Assembly (NCBI GenBank): GCA_033220425.1 | Contig: CM065652.1 | Span: 4,669,929-4,733,928, forward strand | Reading direction: 5' to 3' | Source: Lepraria neglecta | Taxonomy: Eukaryota; Ascomycota; Lecanoromycetes; Lecanorales; Stereocaulaceae | Length of the DNA stretch: 64,000 bases | The notes under the pieces: generated by a model | Database searches by the model: none | Seen by the model: the letters and a program-made list of their open reading frames with translations, nothing else | What the model was told of the DNA's origin: nothing | Position numbers and translations under genes: made by a program | Shown: one piece after another, positions 16,762 to 44,999 of the stretch | How positions within the stretch are numbered: position 1 is the stretch's first letter | How the letters are laid out: each line of letters starts with the position of its first letter

Positions 16762-19700
16762 TTAAATAGGCGTCTCTGTCAACTCCTTCAACGGCTCTAT
16801 TACATTCTTCGCGAATTCTTTCAAAATGCTAATATCCAGGTCTTCCGAGCTGTCCATGCTTCCGCTCAAGCAGAAGTGGACCACGTCTCTATACACAGCG
16901 CCTACCGTTACACCTAAGAACGGCACATGAATTTTGATTAGTTCTTGTCTGAATTCGGTCAAATCCATCCTTAAGCACCTCTGGCTTGTCGCCCATACAC
17001 GCAACGGTTGCCAAAACCCTAATTCTAATAGGATTAGACCTAGACTGTAATAATCGTAGTTCGCCTGATATCGTTCCGTGCGAGCGTATTCCGGATGCTG
17101 ATAATCTTGAAAATCAGCTCTGCTAGCCGGGCTAGCTTGGCTGACCAGGCTAGCTTGGCTGACCGGGCCAGCCGAATCCCAATTTTTCCCACCAAGCCGG
17201 CTCTTATGGAGGCCGACGACATACGGTCGTCGAAGTGCCCGCGGGGCGAGTATGCGGCTGCTGCTTTGTTCGCTGTCCCTGATATCAAAGAATAGAATGT
17301 TATTAGAGTTGAAGTTTTCGTGAAGCCAGCCTATGTTGTGAAAATCTCCTAAGAACTGGGCAAGTACAGACGCCAACTGTAACTTGTCACCAAGAAGAGG
17401 CTGACATTTCTTGTTTCCAATAAGCTGGAGTAATGTTGTAGTCGAAGAGCCAATGTCCCCTTCTGCGTCATTTATCGGAATTTGATAGAGAAAGCCATAT
17501 CCAGCCATGTCGCCTGTATTTTCAAAAGCACCAATGCATTCCAGCGTTCGCATACCCGCAGGCTTGGTTTTCTCGCTAAAACCCTGAGCCTTGTAGCTCA
17601 TTACAATTGCGCGTTGGTCCGGCCGAACCTTCTCCCAACCACGAGAATAGTACATCCACTCAATCAGCACGGGTAACCCGCTGAAAAGACCGAATTCATG
17701 GTGGTGGACTGCTCGAAGTCGTCTCTGAACATCATTCTCTGAAACAATGAAACCTTCCGGCATACTTGTGGGATTGGATTTCATATTCAGTCCAATCCTT
17801 TTCATCATGGCCAAAGCTGCACATTTCTCGTAAGTTGAATCATCTTCAGATTTGAAGGCCCGCTCAACATCGTCCAGACGACCAACGTCTTCTGTGTCCA
17901 ACATGGCCCGAAGCCAGGCCGCTTCTGCCTTTCTCCGTTCATTCATTGGCAAAAGGTTCCATAGAGTCTCAACTAGTTCATTGATATCATTTTCAAAGCG
18001 TTCACCAAAACTAGCGCATTTGTCTGCGCTATACTCCTGCCCTACAGTCGTGTTAGGCACCATTGCAAGGCTCTGGGACTCGACTTTATGAAAGCGTCCT
18101 GCCATAGTTTTGAGAGCTTTGAGATATTCGTCGTAGCGACTGGTCAGATTGCTGGATGGCAAGAAAATTATCTTGTCGCTATCCAAACCTGTAACGTAGC
18201 CAAAAGCTGCAAACCGCTCACTCTCGAACCATAATCTCATCCTATTGAAGGTCTGATCCGTCCTATTTGCAGCAGATTGTTTCATGTACTTGTGGATTAG
18301 GTCGCGTACAGTGATAAAATGAGCTTTCAGGCTAACTTGGGTGAGATCCGCACAAATATCTTCGATTTTTGGACGATCTTCAGTGTCCCTTTTCAGCGCT
18401 TTCCTCGCTAGATTGGCAAGTATTAAGACGGGACCGGGATGCAACAGACCATGTGTTAACGAATCAAGCCATTGAAGAACAACAGACTTGAGGCTCCCGT
18501 CTTTGTCGTGAAAACAGCTGTCCTCCCAACCCGGTGACCGACCGCTCAATCTTAGCTTGCGAAATTCTTTCAGACTTGCCGCTCCCCTCTTCATATAGAT
18601 GATTACTTCGATCATTAAGCAGCCAAAAGCCCAGACATCAATCGCTCGACCAACGTTTTGTTCAACGAAGCTCCCATTTACGCACTCCGGGGCAAGATAG
18701 TCTCCGTCCGTGTCCTCCCACGGCGTCTGGGATGGAATATCTATAGGCTTGAACTTCCCGAGCCCAAAATCTGCGAGAATAAACGTCTCTTGGCTTATTA
18801 ATACGTTAGCAGGTCGGAGATCATGATGATAACCAATTGCATCGATATCCAAGCCATGTCTCTCTTTCTCGAGATGAAGTTTGTGGGTGCTGCATAGTGC
18901 TGAGGCTAATCCACGAAGAGCCGAGAAGAATGTAAAGTCCCGATTGAAATCTCCGAACCGAGATTCGCTTTGGAGAAAAGCCTTAAGGTCTGTTTCATAG
19001 CTCGGAAATAGAAAGTTATGTCTTTCACCGTAGGTGTAGGAACCAAGTAAGCGGATGATATTTGGATGTGCAAGTCGATCGAGAAGGAGTAAGCAAGTGT
19101 GCTCGTTGAGGAATGTCGTATTATACGCCTCTTTGGTCTGACCCTTTCCAAGTCTAATTTCTTTCCTCACCACCTGAATGGGGCCGCTCTGTAAGGACAT
19201 TAGTACTTGGATTATTTTCCTCTCTCCAACTATACTAGGCTTGAATCGCATTGCCTATAACGAAAGTGATGGACGTGAACTTACCTGATTGAGTACAAAC
19301 TCCTGCTGAGAATTGAAAATCATCACCTTGAATATATCGCCAAACCCGCCTTCAGCAATAAATTCTGGCTCACCCACGAACGGAAGAATCCTCTCGCTAT
19401 TGTTGATACGTCTATGATAATCACGCATATCCCGTGAAAATTTGTACGGTAGGAACTGCCGCTGGTAATCTCGCGCAAAGAAGATACCGAAGTCGCCTGC
19501 TATCTGCTTTGCTACGGCTTCGCTCAAAGGTAATTGAGCGTCTAGTACTTCGTTCTTGCGGAACTCAGTAATCAAGTCTTCTTCTCCGTTCTTAATCAAA
19601 ATTGCAAACATCCGAGTACCTTTCTCATGTATCGTATGGGCTAAGCCCGTCTTTTCGATGATCGGACATTCTAATTCATCCACAGCTTTCCTAACGTCAT

Positions 19701-24015: not shown

Positions 24016-25983
24016 CAAGTGAGTGCCCGTAATCTTCACAGAAGATTACCGTAAACCGGATATATCTCGCTTATTTTATACTCCATTTAGAAAATTTAAG
24101 CGAAATTAGAAAGTAATCTATCTATAGTATTGAATTATAAGCTTATCTATAACTTTGTATAATAGCAACGGTTTTGGTATATATAAGAGCTGGCTATTTA
24201 GATAGCTCTAGGATGCAGAAATGATCTTTGAAGCTTTACATGGTTTGGATGGTTCCAGGACACTTTTCGCCCCCGGAAGCCATTAGAATGCCCCCGGAAC
24301 GAATAGGCAACATACCGCCATATCGCCATGTGCGAATAGGCAATCCGGTGCCATATCGCCATGTGCGAATAGGCAATCTACCGCCATATCGCCATGTGCG
24401 AATAGGCAATCTACCGCCATATCGCCATGTGCGAATAGAGCAATCCGGTGCCATATCTCCATGTGCGAATAGGCAACCTGCCGCCATATCGCCATGTGCG
24501 AATAGGCAATCCGGTGCCATATCGCCAACTGTGCGAATAGGCAATCTACCGCCATATCGCCATGTGCGAATAGGCAATCCGGTGCCATATCTCCATGTGC
24601 GAACAGGCAATCCAGCGCCATATCGCCATGTGCAGAATAGGTAATCCAGCGCCATATCGCCATGTGCGAATAGGCAATCCGTCGCCATATCACCATGTGC
24701 GAATGAGCCATCCGGTGCCATATCGCCATGTGCGAATGAGCCATCCGGTGCCATATCGCCATGTGCGAATAGGCAATCCATCGCCATATCGCCATATGCG
24801 AATAGGCAACCTGCCGCCATATCGAATAGGCAACCCGGTGCCATATAGCCAACAGTGCGAATAGGCAATCCAGTGCCATATCGCCATGTGCCGAATGGGC
24901 AATCCTATGCCATATCGCCATGTGCGAATAGGCAATCTACCGCCATATCTCCATGTGCGAACAGGCAATCCATCGCCATATCGCCATGTGCAGAATAGGC
25001 AATCCAGCGCCATATCGCCATGTGCGAATTGAGCCATCCGGTGCCATATCTCCATGTGCGAACAGGCAATCCATCGCCATATCGTCATGTGCAGAATAGG
25101 CAATCCAGCGCCATATCGCCATGTGCGAATAGGCAATCCATCGCCATATCGCCATGTGCGAATTGAGCCATCCGGTGCCATATCGCCATGTGCGAATAGG
25201 CAATACATCGCCATATCGCCATGTGCGAATAGGCAACCTGCCGTCATATCGAATAGGCAACCTGATCGCCATATCGCCATGTGCGAATATTGCTTATAAG
25301 TTTTGCGCAAATAGACCGATTTTGAAAATTTCGACGGTATTGGAAAGCGCATGCTTGGTTCCAAAACTGATAAGATTATCTCGATATCATATGACATATG
25401 TGGCGCGGGGCATTACTGCGAAGAAGTTGCGGTGCGCATTCAACTTTTGATGTTCCAGGGTCCGGAGGCGCCAAGCTCAATGCTTGGCATTTGCTACTGA
25501 GCTCGCACTGCCTGCAAAACAAAGTGAAAACGCTTCTTTTGCTCATAACTATTGCGTAAGTGGACTGATTTTGAAAATTTTGACGGTGTTAGAAAGCGCA
25601 TGCTTGGTTCCAAAACTTATGAAATCATCTCGATATTATATGATGTATGTGGCGCGGGGAAGTCCTGCGAAGAAGTTACGGTGCGCAAGCAAAACATGGC
25701 GAAAACGCTTCTTTTGCTCATAACTATTGCGCAAATAGGCCGATTCTAAGAATTCTTGATGCGCAAGCAAGCTAATGATTGAATCCAAAACATATGAAAT
25801 CATCTCGATATCATATGACGTATGTGGCGCGGGGAAGTAGTGCGAAGAAGTTGCGATGTAAATTCAAGTTTTGGTGGTTGAAGGCGCTAGCCGAGAGAGG
25901 GAACACTGAATATAGGGCCAATCTAATTGGCTATAAGTGCGGAATTGCTCCGAATTTCGCCATAATCTGTTATTAGAAGAAGA
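24016..25983 (-). mobile_element. Non-autonomous Helitron, copy 2, carrying a minisatellite
   Basis: Sense is the minus strand: start TCTTCTTCTAATAACAG at 25983, hairpin and CTTG end at 24016. The interrupted LTR is contiguous across the insertion (TATATA joined to TAGAGTA), with no duplicated bases. From its 5' end come two to three 230-bp monomers (25290-25983), then a 33-bp tandem array (24300-25289), then about 120 bp of unmutated unique sequence (24180-24300), then the 3' terminal region. It is the longest copy. Confidence 0.75.
24300..25289 (+). repeat. 33-bp minisatellite, about 30 units
   Basis: The unit core is GCCATATCGCCATGTGCGAA followed by TAGGCAAT and a variable CC/CT triplet region. 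33 bp is 11 codons, so both strands stay open over long distances. The plus strand gives an 11-residue period (IGNLPPYRHVR); the minus strand gives HGDMALDCLFA-like repeats of up to 210-235 residues. Single-base insertions shift frames between units. I see no evidence that these frames are genes. The array keeps its CpA and TpG sites, so it has not been hit by RIP. Confidence 0.9.
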
Positions 25984-39529: not shown

Positions 39530-41507
39530 ACGTAATCCCTGCTCGGCGACACCCCCGGCCCGGCGACACCTTTTTGACGAAATCATCAAAACACCATATT
39601 CGTCACTAATCAACAACCGCAACGATTGGTGATTTTAGAATTAAATATGTAGTAGATAGAAGGTATACATATAATGATTGAGCCCAGAATCCTTATATAT
39701 CAAAGCGCCGTAGGCGTTGAACCTTCCTTCTACGAGATATAGCTGAAATTACCTCCTTGACTTACAATGCGACGATAGTATAACTAGACCCTTTTACTTG
39801 CTTCTTAACAGTCTTTTAAGCTTTTAGAAGCTTTATAGATTACTTATTTAAGCTTAGTTGCCCTGCGCTATAGTATTTTGCTGCTTCTCTTAGCTCTTTT
39901 TAAGCTTGCTTATCTATAGCTTTCTAGGCTAACACTTCTATAGCGAGTTAAGATCTTTTAGCAGCGAGTATTACCCTATATAGCTTATCCTCCTCTTTTT
40001 AAGCCTTTCTAGTAGCTACTAAAGCTTTTTTATCAAGGATTTACTACTATCGTAGTACTTCTTCAGTATCTTTTATAGCTTAAAATTAGCGAGTAGCTTA
40101 TACTCGCTATAGGCTAAAGAATTAAGGTCTAGAATCTTCTTTACCAAGTAGATTAAGGCGTTTACTACGTTATCTCTTCTTCTTTTTATTCCTAAAGGAT
40201 ACTATTAAGCCTTTAATAATATATTAGTCTACTAAATACTAAGAAATAAGGCGTTTATTCGCTCGAAAAAGCTTCTTAAGTAAAGATAAATTCAGTTAAT
40301 TATAGTATTATCGTTAGACTCGGCGGATAGTATAATATATTATTAGTATCTTTACTATTAAAGAGGCTTCGGTCGGAGTCAGCTTAGTGATTTTATCTAG
40401 AGTTATCGCTGGATTATAGAGCTAAATACCAGTTTTTTCGAAGCCGGAAGCGATATTTACAGGTATAAATACCTTCTGCTAAGTAGGCTAGAAGATACTC
40501 TAAAAGGCTCTTTTCGACATAGAGACCATAGCTAGACTATTTATTATTAATTTATTAAGACCCTTAGTATAATAAGACGCTAAAGGCGTAAAAAGGGATA
40601 TATTAAGAGGTTATAAACGATGCGTTGAATATAGAGGTAAAACCAACACGAGAATACGTAGTTTGTCGTATAGATCAATGAACCTTAGGTTAATATAACT
40701 GCTATATCTATTAATAATCAATAAACGACATCCTCTTCCGGCTCTTTTGCTTATATAATAGTAAAATATTACTTCTAGCTAATAAAGATCTAAAGTATTA
40801 TAACTCTATCCGTTTAATAAGACTACGAAATAGACTATATCTTTAGATAGCTAGTCCTCTAGCTATATATCTTATAGTATAGATTCACCTTTATAGATAA
40901 GCGATAGAGAGAGAGTAGCTCCTATAGCATTAATATATATAAGTAAGCTAATGAATTATCTGCTTCCGTCTTGATTTATATATATAATATAGCCGTTTTT
41001 AAGGGCTTCCCTGCTTATTATACGCTGTATAGTATCTGCTTAGCTAATCGCGAATCCTTTTTCATCCCAGTTATAGAGGTTATCGCCGGTAATATTATAT
41101 TTCTCCATAGCGGCGATTAGCTGTATTAAATATTAGTAATCTGATTAAACAACGCTTTATGTTAGAACCATTGGTTCTGACAGGACTGTCGCAGAGGACA
41201 AGGACTCTGGACAGGACAGGAAGCTGAAGCGATGGGCGCAATGGGCTCGGAGCGACCATGGCGACCATGGACATTGGGCGCAATGGGCGCAACACGACCA
41301 AGGCGACCATGAAAGGCTTGGCAGGATTTCCTATTGCTATATGTAGGAGCACTTGCTCACCACTTGGAGCATCGTGCTCAATCTTCTGTTTACATCTAGT
41401 ACTTACTACATGCGATAGATCTCTTAGGCTAGGCACTGAATATATATATCACCTGATTATATACCAGACCCGCTTAGCATCACTTGAAGCCTGCTTCATA
41501 CTCTTGT

Positions 41508-41685
41508 TGTCACGGCCTGATCTAGTAGTAGTAGAACGGTGGCTATCAATGAGGTGATATGGATAAAATACTAATGCTAAGGAAAGAAGGCCATATGGGC
41601 GCGCGAGGAATCTATATAGGTATGCGGCGGCAAGCCTCTGAGCTAGGCCCAATGAGGTGTGCGTATGCATGGCCAGCCCGTGACA
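41508..41685 (-). repeat. 3' LTR of the BIR-Gag element
   Basis: 178 bp, the same as 44537-44714. The polypurine tract complement (TTACCCCCTCTTCT, 41686-41699) follows immediately, which marks it as the 3' LTR of a minus-strand element. Confidence 0.9.
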
Positions 41686-42334
41686 TTACCCCCTCTTCTA
41701 CTAGGCATCGTCCCGATGCCTGCAGCCAATTAGGATTTCGCAGGCCTGGCGCTAGCGGAGGCTCGTGAAAGATTTCAGCCAATTAGGTGCATAGGTGGTG
41801 GCTGATCCTAGGAATTGCGAAATGGGCATGTCGAATACTGAACTTGCGACAGCAGAAAACAGTGGCGTTTAGATGCCAAGCCTGGTCATTAGGGGTAACT
41901 ATAGCATACAGCGACTGAAGGGCGGCCTCAGGTATCAAAAGATATATGCTATTACGGTGGAATAGCGGCCGGTGGTTGAAAGAAGGCAAGGATGCATAGC
42001 ATTGCATGAAAATGCATAGGCATTCAAAATCGGTGATAGCAATTATTAAATGGTGGCGTTTATAAGTCTTAGCGCCAGTGCTCTAGCTAGAATAGGCTAG
42101 CTTGTTGAATCGAATAGATTAAGCAAGCTGCTTCGGGGCAGGAATGCTAGATGTAGGGCATCGGTGGCCTAATGCATGGCGATGGTGGTATCTAGGATCT
42201 GATGCCGGGCGGCAAAGCGGTGGTGGCATCTGGGATCTGATGCCTGGCGGTGAGGCGATGGTGGCATCTAGGGTCTGATGCATGGCGGTGCGGTTGCATA
42301 TGGCGGAACTTGGGGCGGAGCTCGCCTGGAACAG
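41686..42334. other. 3' non-coding region of the BIR-Gag element
   Basis: GC-balanced, no ORF recognised. At 42175-42300 about three imperfect ~48-bp tandem copies (GATGGTGGCATCTAGGATCT, TGATGC, GGCGG motifs) follow one another. The right end is the stop codon of the ORF. Confidence 0.6.
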
Positions 42335-43756
42335 TCAACTAGGTACTGGCGTAGGATAGCTCATCAAACGAGATCTCTGTAATAGCGGTATAGATTGGTA
42401 TGGCGTCAGGCGGAGAGGTGTTCCAGGAAATGAAGAAAATGGATTTTTTGGTTTTAGTGTTTTAGGTGTTTTGGTGCTTCTATCCCCCTTTTTAGCAAGG
42501 TAGCGTCCGCGATACCTGCTAGATATATATATCTTTTCTGATCCTGCATATGTATGGCTATTTCTTTTGGCTTGTTGGATAGCGGAGGTAGCGGAGGTAG
42601 TCGTCTTTATTGAGGTGGTAGAAGCCGCGGAAGCGGTGGCGGAACTCATAGATTTGGCGGTGGTGGTACAGCCAGATTGAGTGGAACAGTGAAATTCGGT
42701 AGGGCGGCCGACTTTAGTAGAATCAGTAGATCTGGTAGTAGAGGATTTGGCAGTGGTGGAACGTTGTCCAAATAGTCGAGATAAATCACTCATCCTAAGA
42801 TATGGAGGTATATGCTTGTTGGTAGCTCTTAGAGGTGCATATCTTATATAAAGGTCTTTGACGGTAAGGTGATCCTTAATAGCTTTATAAGCTGGCGGTG
42901 GAGGCGAAATCATTCGATATCTCGGAGGTGGCGTAGCTGGTGGAGTCGCTGGCGTAGATGGAGTTTGGGTGGATGAGGCGTGCCTATACACCAGGCCTTG
43001 GCATTTCTCGCGTAGATGTTGATACAGCTGATTTCTTGATGAAAACACCTTTTCGCATTGCCTGCAAGATGGCTTGTTGCATGTATTTTCCTGCGTATGT
43101 CGGATAAGGCGCGCGGTTGAGGAGAACGAGGCATTGCAGAGCTTGCAGTAGTGGTATTCGGGTGCTTGGCTTGATTCCATTGGTTGCGGAGTTGCTTGCG
43201 GAGCTGTTTGCGGAGCTGCTTGCGGGAATTGAGCTTTCATGGCTTGTATGCATTTGGATAGATCCTGATGACTTCTCGATTGGTTGAACCAGGTAAGGGC
43301 TCCGCCGCGGAGGCACTTGGGAAGAAGCGCTAGGATATCAGCTTCTAGGAATTGTGATCGGGATTGCTCGATGCGGTTACAAAAGGCGTTTATGTCATGA
43401 AAAAGGCATAGATCAGGAAAGTCATGTTGTAGCGAAAGATCTAGAAATCCGATATCTTTTGGCACTGGCTTTGGCGATAGCTTTAGCGATGGCTTTGGCG
43501 GGGATATACGCGAAGACAACTTTAGTGGTCTCTTTTGGAACATTGGGCAGCTTTCTGAGTAGATTAGATGCTCAATCTCAGGATCATCTTCTGGTTCCCA
43601 ATCGTATAAGCGGGTATTGCATATCCGGCAGACAACGTTATCTGCATGGCTGGCTGTAGGCATATGGCTGAATCCAGCTTCTGCAAGATCTTCTGGGGTG
43701 GGAGAGGTATGCGGCCATGAGGCGAATGAGGCAAGACATTCAGTATATGTCGACAT
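42335..43756 (-). CDS. BIR domain - Gag-like - double C2HC zinc finger protein of an LTR element
   Basis: 473 aa, uninterrupted. Residues 1-75 form a BIR (baculovirus IAP repeat) domain of the survivin type: ASFASWP at 9-15, PEDLAEAGF at 21-29, and zinc ligands C43, C46, H63, C70 (spacing CX2CX16HX6C), with DDPEIEH before the histidine. Residues about 100-175 look like retroelement Gag: a helical segment with LRGGALTWFNQ and regularly spaced hydrophobics. Two CX2CX12HX4-5C fingers follow at about 203-255 (CKLCNASFSS, CRQCEKVFSS). The rest is proline-rich, then basic and Ser/Thr-rich (about 265-473), suited to nucleic-acid binding. Cellular BIR proteins of this type (survivin, Bir1) bind chromatin or histone tails at the centromere. 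Here a role in particle assembly or in targeting to chromatin is inference. Confidence 0.85.
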   Translation of the reverse strand: MSTYTECLASFASWPHTSPTPEDLAEAGFSHMPTASHADNVVCRICNTRLYDWEPEDDPEIEHLIYSESCPMFQKRPLKLSSRISPPKPSLKLSPKPVPKDIGFLDLSLQHDFPDLCLFHDINAFCNRIEQSRSQFLEADILALLPKCLRGGALTWFNQSRSHQDLSKCIQAMKAQFPQAAPQTAPQATPQPMESSQAPEYHYCKLCNASFSSTARLIRHTQENTCNKPSCRQCEKVFSSRNQLYQHLREKCQGLVYRHASSTQTPSTPATPPATPPPRYRMISPPPPAYKAIKDHLTVKDLYIRYAPLRATNKHIPPYLRMSDLSRLFGQRSTTAKSSTTRSTDSTKVGRPTEFHCSTQSGCTTTAKSMSSATASAASTTSIKTTTSATSAIQQAKRNSHTYAGSEKIYISSRYRGRYLAKKGDRSTKTPKTLKPKNPFSSFPGTPLRLTPYQSIPLLQRSRLMSYPTPVPS

Positions 43757-44536
43757 CTTGATGGATTCGGTAGTGAGGAGTAGCGGCAGGATAGCTAAGT
43801 CGACGGCTCAGTAAAGAGATCGATCTAGCGGTAATGCGTTGGGTAATAGGGTCGGTAGGTAGTTGGATGGCTGGATAGTTGGATGGTTGGATGGTTGGAT
43901 GGTTGGATGGTTGGATGGTTGGATGGTTGGATGGTTGGATGGTTGGATGGTTGGATGGCTAGATGGTTGGTAAAGCTGCTAAGGGTATAGTAGCTAAGGG
44001 CGGAGGGCGGAGCGGAGCGGAGCTGCAGATATATGATGGTGCTGCTGAGGATGTAGCACCTGAAGGCAGATAGTTGGTGAAGCTGCTAAGGGTATAGTAG
44101 CTAAGGGTAGAGGGCGGAGCGGAGGCGGAATAGAGGCGGAGCTGGTAGTAAGTCGATGGCTCAGTAAAGAGGTCAACTTCCGGAGGAAGGTAGAAGTAGT
44201 AATTAAGCTGCTAGGGATTTAGTAGCTGAGGGCGGAGCTGATAAGATATTATAGGTAGGCGTTGGCAAGAGGTGAGCGCTGGTAGTAGGAGGTAAGGATC
44301 AAATTCGGAAGGCGGCGGTTGGTGCTATAAAGCTATTGAGCTTCCGGATTACTCGGTGGCAGGTTGAGGTATTGAGGTATTAAGGGGCCTAGGGGTTGGT
44401 AGGTGCCCTTGGGGTGGTCCTGGCGGACCTGGTGGTGTTATTAGGTATTAACACCGTGGTTGCTGCCGGCCAAATAGCAGCTGGTGGGATGCATATGAAG
44501 ATACACCCCGGTGGCTTGTTTGGAGCATTAGTATTA
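43757..44536 (-). other. 5' leader of the BIR-Gag element with (TTGGATGG)n
   Basis: No ORF recognised. At 43858-43968 about thirteen copies of an 8-bp unit (GGTTGGAT) form a microsatellite. Around 43975-44130 two copies of a ~100-bp block share GAAGCTGCTAAGGGTATAGT / AGCTAAGGGCGGAG. The leader sits between the primer-binding site and the start codon in sense orientation. Confidence 0.7.
44524..44535 (-). promoter_or_regulatory. Putative self-primer binding site
   Basis: Sense strand AATACTAATGCT, one base inside the 5' LTR. It is perfectly complementary to AGCATTAGTATT within the LTR (44607-44596). I do not recognise it as complementary to a tRNA 3' end. The arrangement matches the Tf1/sushi self-priming mechanism, in which the RNA 5' end folds back on the primer site. 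Confidence 0.65.
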
Positions 44537-44714
44537 TGTCACGGCCTGATCTAGTAGTAGTAGAACGGTGGCTATCAATGAGGTGATATGGATAAAATAC
44601 TAATGCTAAGGAAAGAAGGCCATATGGGCGCGCGAGGAATCTATATAGGTATGCGGCGGCAAGCCTCTGAGCTAGGCCCAATGAGGTGTGCGTATGCATG
44701 GCCAGCCCGTGACA
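44537..44714 (-). repeat. 5' LTR of the BIR-Gag element, with TATA box
   Basis: 178 bp. On the sense strand a TATA-like box (CCTATATAGA, around 44641-44650) lies about 40 nt upstream of AGCATTAGTATT, the segment complementary to the primer site, so transcription could start there. Confidence 0.85.
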
Positions 44715-44999
44715 CTTGTTGGCTGCACCTCCATCCCTATTGAGAATCAATCCATATACGACCGTTGAGACGCAACACGGTTCGTAACACTTTAGAAGAG
44801 TTACTAAGTTATAGAATTGCTTAAATAAAGGCGTATACTCTGCTTTTATTCGCTAGCTATCGATCTTTCGTAGATAGAGGCTTCTAAGCCTGTTTTTATA
44901 GCGCTTAACAAAATCGCCAGTCCAGTTCTTCCCTACCGGCCGGCCAATTATCTCTTGTGCTAAATTATATACAATCTGGAGATGTAGAATCCATTAGGG

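Follow-up and report, generated by a model that had tools for sequence, protein, structure and literature searches.

A probable non-autonomous retrotransposon with a BIR domain

The 64,000-nucleotide stretch of the Lepraria neglecta genome analysed here (contig CM065652.1, positions 4,669,929 to 4,733,928), hereafter designated as the window, harbours what is probably a young non-autonomous LTR retrotransposon, self-primed, moved in trans by a Ty3 element of the L068 type, and encoding a Gag-like RNA-packaging protein whose BIR domain has been kept for binding. The RNA of this element would prime itself in the manner of Tf1, while the reverse transcriptase (RT) and integrase of resident L068-type Ty3 elements would copy and integrate it in trans. 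Its 473-aa protein would package the RNA through two C2HC fingers and a capsid-like segment, PPxY motifs may call in host ubiquitin ligases, and the N-terminal BIR would represent a cellular-type domain retained for a binding task.

Organization of the element

The element spans 3,207 bp, with the BIR-Gag ORF lying between two 178-bp LTRs of identical sequence and the 5-bp target-site duplication CTTGT on either flank. It thus combines the characteristic features of LTR retrotransposons, namely an LTR pair with TG..CA ends, a target-site duplication, a polypurine tract, and dispersed copies, and the identical LTRs and the CTTGT duplication bear out the young element with a 178-bp LTR that an earlier note had described from the sequence. 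The ORF had been placed at 42335..43756; these coordinates are right and correspond to 473 aa, the coding strand being the minus strand since the plus strand contains 30 stops in that frame. The features, in window coordinates, are as follows:

41503..41507, no strand: target-site duplication CTTGT, left copy
41508..41685, minus: 3' LTR, same sequence as the 5' LTR
41686..41698, minus: polypurine tract GAAGAGGGGGTAA, adjoining the 3' LTR
41705..41719, minus: short inverted repeat GCATC-GGGAC-GATGC, identified by eye; L068 has the same
42335..43756, minus: sole long ORF, BIR-Gag protein, 473 aa
42887..42928, minus: PPxY pair, PPRY (residues 277-280) and PPAY (287-290)
43001..43066, minus: zinc finger 2, CX2CX12HX4C, residues 231-252
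43079..43147, minus: zinc finger 1, CX2CX12HX5C, residues 204-226
43220..43459, minus: helical segment weakly resembling a capsid N-lobe, residues 100-179
43538..43735, minus: BIR domain, residues 8-73, ligands C43, C46, H63, and C70 (Pfam, survivin alignment, model)
43870..43957, minus: 5' leader tandem repeat with an 8-bp unit of about CCATCCAA, variable among copies
44524..44535, minus: primer-binding site AATACTAATGCT, one base past the LTR, full complement of the self-primer, in other copies too
44537..44714, minus: 5' LTR, 178 bp, TGTCAC...GTGACA, TG...CA ends
44596..44607, minus: predicted mRNA 5' end and self-primer AGCATTAGTATT, LTR sense positions 108-119
44642..44647, minus: TATATA, a possible promoter box identified by eye, starting 40 nt upstream of the self-primer
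44715..44719, no strand: target-site duplication CTTGT, right copy

No second ORF longer than 113 aa was found between positions 40000 and 46000, and the Pfam matches above cut-off in the 473-aa ORF consisted of the BIR and a zinc finger. Protease, RT, RNase H, and integrase, which define an autonomous Ty3/Gypsy element, were not detected in the window element; it contains no apparent RT ORF, and the 150 RT matches listed (of 570 candidates in the genome) all fall outside it. Rfam searches over the window returned no match at gathering scores. Elsewhere in the window, an 829-aa ORF on the minus strand (16762-19251) appears by eye to be protein-kinase-like, with a second kinase-like half.

The BIR domain

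According to profile matches and modelling, a genuine BIR domain, for which zinc binding is predicted, occupies residues 8-73. The profile search against the BIR family, named beforehand as a check, produced a significant PF00653 match (residues 8-73, E 8.9e-16; 58.6 bits against a curated cut-off of 22.9), and the ligands C43, C46, H63, and C70 show the CX2CX16HX6C spacing in an alignment with survivin that is gapless from the first ligand onward. Survivin was also the best match of residues 1-79 in the PDB (E 2.7e-12), with 28 of 66 residues identical as counted on the alignment. The model of residues 1-82 displayed a fold order of helix-helix-strands-helix-helix, with a mean pLDDT of 88.9, a pTM of 0.76, and averages of 91-96 over successive blocks of ten residues between positions 11 and 70. 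The survivin-type BIR proposed in the earlier note, ligand spacing included, is thus well founded. As regards structure prediction, the confident BIR-like fold was limited to residues 1-82; the longer, 345-aa model was poor (pTM 0.35), and so was its BIR part.

The BIR is part of the element and is kept in its relatives. In a scan of 40 proteins, comprising the window protein and 39 of the 42 homologue matches, a BIR was detected in 27 at E up to 1, and precomputed labels place one in 25 of the 42 homologues, some of the others being short or beginning past the BIR. With the columns fixed, the 27 BIR rows of alignment A1 retain C43 in 24 cases, C46 in 25, H63 in 19, and C70 in 15. Part of this ligand loss reflects a one-column shift, since C43, C46, and C70 reach at least 90% in an alignment of 31 rows chosen as BIR-bearing. 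A protein search restricted to the BIR yielded two proteins from nine candidates.

Copies, decay, and constraint

When the 42-Mb genome (11 contigs) was searched, the LTR query returned at least 40 scored matches. Duplications of 5 bp were found at all six full-length elements read, including the window copy, and at all four solo LTRs read. The copies found by this genome-wide search with the LTR, also named beforehand, show that the ORF belongs to the element. Chance flanking of a host gene by LTRs was considered separately and rejected on the basis of the duplications in the six full-length elements.

Among 31 genome matches of the ORF, the window copy is the sole full-length one free of stops. 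The six other long copies (L002-L007) each contain 1 to 13 stops of the TAG/TAA type in the main match. Relative to the window, C-to-T or G-to-A changes exceed the reverse changes in L002 (26/5), L003 (100/20), L004 (36/16), L005 (130/20), and L006 (75/29); this transition bias is absent from the divergent L007 (105/100). Repeat-induced point mutation would fit the bias of these copies.

Constraint was measured by transversions only and is given as raw omega values. Between the window copy and L007, omega was 0.47 for the whole ORF (48 synonymous changes, 96 not). By part, and with small counts, it was 0.32 for the capsid-like segment, 0.28 for the fingers, 0.40 for the PPxY region, and 0.64 for the BIR (8 synonymous, 28 not), the last value being not clearly below 1 for the BIR alone. 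The whole-ORF value against L006 was 0.75.

Several copies have a mosaic appearance. L003 and L005 match the window copy throughout the BIR and the capsid-like part save for transitions (at most one transversion), but their finger module at residues 199-255 is distinct from that of the window copy, with 28 transversions over 56 codons, and is nearest to other homologues. L006 departs from the window copy mainly in the capsid-like part (residues 85-182). Template switching between lineages would explain these patterns.

Putative self-priming and a candidate Ty3 partner

The stretch AATACTAATGCT, located one base past the 5' LTR, pairs over 12 nt with AGCATTAGTATT within the LTR, and none of 3000 Markov-shuffled LTRs performed as well. 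The 5' end of the element mRNA is accordingly predicted at AGCATTAG. The divergent BIR element L007 has AGCTTTAGTAT and its own complement (11 nt; 7/3000 shuffles as good, with an approximate LTR start), and 11-nt pairings were also found in three Ty3 elements, with AGCTTAGTTAT in L067 and AGATATGTTCT in L068 (0/3000 shuffles as good in each), and AGTTTAGTTAT in L066. Shuffles were run on the window element, L007, L067, L068, L063, and the second BIR family described below, the L066 pairing being read directly. Self-pairing in L063 reached 9 nt (29/3000 shuffles as good). In the second BIR family no self-primer was detected (5 nt; 2553/3000 shuffles as good), and a TGGTAGCAACGG stretch, possibly a tRNA site, occurs instead. 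Since the sequence varies and the pairing stays in the window element, L007, L066, L067, and L068, a function in self-priming such as that of Tf1 and Tj1 is suggested, and this covariation across five families argues for a Tf1-type self-priming site.

The 3' end of the window element, comprising the inverted repeat, the polypurine tract, and the LTR start, resembles that of L068 over 52 nt (83%, E 8.5e-8). The alignment scores of this region with L066, L067, and L068 were each better than those of all 2000 shuffles, while 558/2000 and 926/2000 shuffles were as good for L065 and L063, respectively. L066, L067, and L068 possess their own LTRs and RT matches to PF00078, as well as an integrase and a chromodomain recognized by eye, with several frames broken; a CCHC Gag was read by eye in the L067 ORF. 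Because of its match to the L068 3' end, the window element is probably mobilised in trans by an L068-type Ty3 element. Ty3 RT copies are abundant in the genome (at least 150, of 570 candidates), mostly with stops; L063, L066, and L067, in which the LTR stretches are identical, appear young.

Relatives and a second BIR family

The nearest named protein comes from Lepraria finkii, an ascomycete of the Lecanorales (Stereocaulaceae). Judging by such relatives, the host of the element is probably lichen-forming. The BIR of the window copy is closest to P0001 of L. finkii (87%) and that of L007 to P0005 of the same species (83%); since the two pairs run across both fungi, the two BIR lineages seem older than their split. 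A BIR is also present in P0046 of Alectoria fallacina. P0042 and P0077 combine a BIR and PPxY, with no fingers among their Pfam matches, and P0042 contains a second BIR stretch. Scans of viral and genome contigs with a core profile yielded 47 and 31 pattern matches, respectively, and no confirmed relatives.

A second family of BIR elements is represented by L064 and L065, which are ca. 4.9 kb in size, with LTR pairs of 152 and 154 nt that are 97 and 99% identical. In their ORFs, the BIR precedes fingers, PPxY, and a DLYMRYAP tail, and a single ORF of P0039 combines by eye a BIR end with fingers and PPxY. Visual inspection of L064, L065, and P0039 revealed no capsid-like segment, so that the BIR, the fingers, and PPxY are the parts common to both families. 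At C7:158076, an LTR junction of this family among 13 pattern sites, no autonomous partner was found within the 5 kb read. A ca. 33-bp minisatellite, coding for HMAIWR...IRTWRYG-like repeats, was noted both in the window (24690-25397) and in L064 (6596-6990), near a second-family element.

A phylogeny of the BIR had been proposed as a comparison with fungal Bir1. In the resulting tree of 36 BIRs, 25 element-type rows including the window copy group together (92/98), the members of the second family make up a separate clade (98/87), and the deeper forks are unsupported.

Is the protein a Gag?

Downstream of the BIR, residues 100-179 are predicted to be helical. When their profile was compared with the PDB at E up to 10, a single match was obtained, the capsid N-lobe of Drosophila Arc2, with a non-significant E of 0.81. 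Of 40 proteins, two gave a Retrotrans_gag match, at E 0.034 or weaker, and of 12 isolated segments none did. When the capsid-like profile was aligned by hhalign with two Gag ORFs from this genome, and with a pol ORF as control, no match was returned. The Gag-like segment announced in the earlier note therefore survives in part: the helical prediction and the Arc2 match speak for it, but capsid homology is not significant and the two Gags of the same genome are not matched. A Gag-like middle segment is thus plausible but weakly indicated by these profiles.

The two C2HC fingers that had been described are indeed present at residues 204-226 and 231-252 and are nearly invariant. Their spacings, CX2CX12HX5C and CX2CX12HX4C, differ from the CX2CX4HX4C of the CCHC knuckle. 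PPxY occurs in 64 of 79 homologues, against a maximum of 16 over 500 shuffles.

Whether the label Gag truly applies is made doubtful by the second BIR family, where inspection by eye revealed no capsid-like segment. This observation, together with the weak capsid evidence, would suit an alternative in which the ORF is a captured host gene with a BIR and C2H2 fingers, carried between LTRs as cargo. A host locus at C4:278540-278713 (L024) has such a layout, encoding by eye a BIR and, beyond an in-frame stop (maybe an intron), a C2H2-like finger HKCKLCQKVFSSGNQFRKHERDAHH, and might be a cellular source or a relic. Yet two LTR families hold the same modules, and P0070, the N terminus of which is possibly cut, has a finger, PPxY, and a DLYMRY tail with no recognized BIR. 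Moreover, the BIRs of elements and hosts do not group with support, and the omega values against L007, small counts notwithstanding, are lower in the capsid-like, finger, and PPxY parts than in the BIR. Capture as cargo is thus considered unlikely, and a Gag-like packaging protein remains the preferred reading.

Possible ligands of the BIR

The earlier note had suggested that the BIR could tether Gag or its complexes to chromatin, fungal Bir1/survivin proteins acting at centromeric chromatin. Alanine replacement of survivin K62, E65, and H80 is reported to disrupt contacts with the N-terminal tail of Sgo1, on a surface that also binds H3T3ph (PMC9253516). The corresponding positions of the window copy are T48, Y51, and Y66, so that the pocket expected of a survivin orthologue is not conserved. 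Tethering to centromeric or mitotic chromatin via H3 phosphorylated at T3 would be in line with survivin being the best PDB match and with the retention of W53 and D57; in addition, of 26 rows of relatives, 17 have His in the H80 column, and 7 have a basic residue, K or R, in that of K62. The suggestion is therefore weakened for the window copy, whereas these relatives keep some of the survivin residues.

The distribution of insertions is also relevant to this issue. After four partial LTR matches (85-88%) were left out, 36 matches merged into 27 window-family sites, solo LTRs included, which were compared with 29 L068-type sites (30 rows reading GGGGGGTAGTGTCACGGC, one on C10 dropped; 3' junctions only). 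In raw percentages, 15% of the window-family sites and 17% of the L068-type sites lie within 100 kb of contig ends, and 48% and 59%, respectively, lie at most 30 kb from a listed RT match (the 150 scored among 570 candidates, those on C10 and C11, 4 in number, being left out); the median distance to a contig end is 593 kb versus 1,239 kb. Insertion sites are thus placed roughly like those of L068-type elements and show no sign of special targeting, which weakens centromere targeting. Altogether, a survivin-like H3T3ph tether appears improbable.

A second type of BIR surface was considered. Glu311, Asp314, and Glu319 of cIAP1 BIR3 and Asp309 of XIAP are among seven IAP cleft positions reported in PMC3499469. 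The window copy has E54, D57, and E62 at the three cIAP1 positions and D52 at that of XIAP, and hence matches four of the seven, the mismatches at 306, 308, and 323 being R49, Y51, and Y66. The register of the cleft was fixed by the zinc ligands, XIAP ligand numbers serving as reference. Survivin shares E54, D57, and E62 with the window copy, so that the case for a pocket unlike that of survivin comes down to D52 and the aromatic Y66; in the 26 rows of the family, the D57 column contains D in 14 and the E54 column E in 10. Based on T48, Y51, and Y66 and on the four cleft matches, this BIR may have a pocket that accepts a free N terminus, and a phosphate reader is less likely in the window copy.

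In the mechanism that we favour, the BIR would grip a host or partner protein by its free N terminus, and not phosphorylated histone H3, which is our best guess and the least secure step of the model. A bolder proposal makes the BIR a receptor for N termini freed by proteolysis: it would seize the RT or integrase of the Ty3 partner once a protease has released them, or a host protein whose N terminus is exposed, while PPxY recruits a Nedd4/Rsp5-type ligase, turning an IAP-like domain into a polymerase-stealing device. We regard this as a long shot.

Finally, the BIR might serve as a decoy through which the active element blocks cell-death or stress signalling in the fungus. BIR domains act as such decoys in other systems. 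Bir1 of Botrytis was reported to be anti-apoptotic and to need its two BIRs (PMC3158057). A pol-less element, however, would profit only indirectly from such an activity. Nor is a suitable fungal ligand known to us, and a decoy function is accordingly viewed as very improbable.

Comparison with known systems

Tf1, and Tj1 of S. japonicus, are reported as self-priming Ty3 elements (PMC4600332). As in Tf1/sushi-type Ty3 elements, the predicted mRNA 5' end of the window element is complementary to a site beside the LTR, and the element shares this pairing, a similar polypurine tract, and a similar LTR start with L066, L067, and L068. In contrast to Tf1/sushi-type elements, it has neither pol nor a CCHC knuckle and encodes a BIR protein. 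Plant TR-GAG elements consist of terminal repeats and gag alone. The window element resembles them in its LTRs, its single gag-like ORF (of weak gag identity), and the absence of pol, but is fungal, BIR-bearing, and probably self-priming, with C2HC instead of CCHC fingers.

At the protein level, the BIR fold and zinc spacing are those of survivin and fungal Bir1, whereas here a single BIR is fused to fingers, and the K62, E65, and H80 positions are replaced in the window copy. The middle segment has a weak likeness to the Arc and Ty3 capsid N-lobe, along with its helical prediction; unlike in these capsids, no C-lobe was recognized in the window protein, and the Arc2 match is not significant.

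BIR domains are familiar as modules of cell death and cell division. A BIR in a retroelement protein was not found among the listed titles and abstract openings of open-access PMC articles; some listed papers, such as PMC3124438 and PMC7831173, mention both subjects. The present architecture, with a BIR kept at the head of the sole long protein by two LTR families within a single genome as well as by named relatives from two genera, would add to the kinds of host module that mobile elements are known to employ. With its small size, recognizable cis signals, a candidate partner in the same genome, and a domain amenable to ligand searches in vitro, the element also offers a testable system.

The retention of an added cellular domain has precedents in an orchid Gypsy element with a captured AlkB domain (PMC9289625) and in bdelloid rotifer LTR elements with extra ORF3s (PMC5408684). 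The window element is similar in this respect; yet in those systems the addition is a supplementary ORF of large or pol-bearing elements, whereas here it forms the N terminus of the sole long protein.
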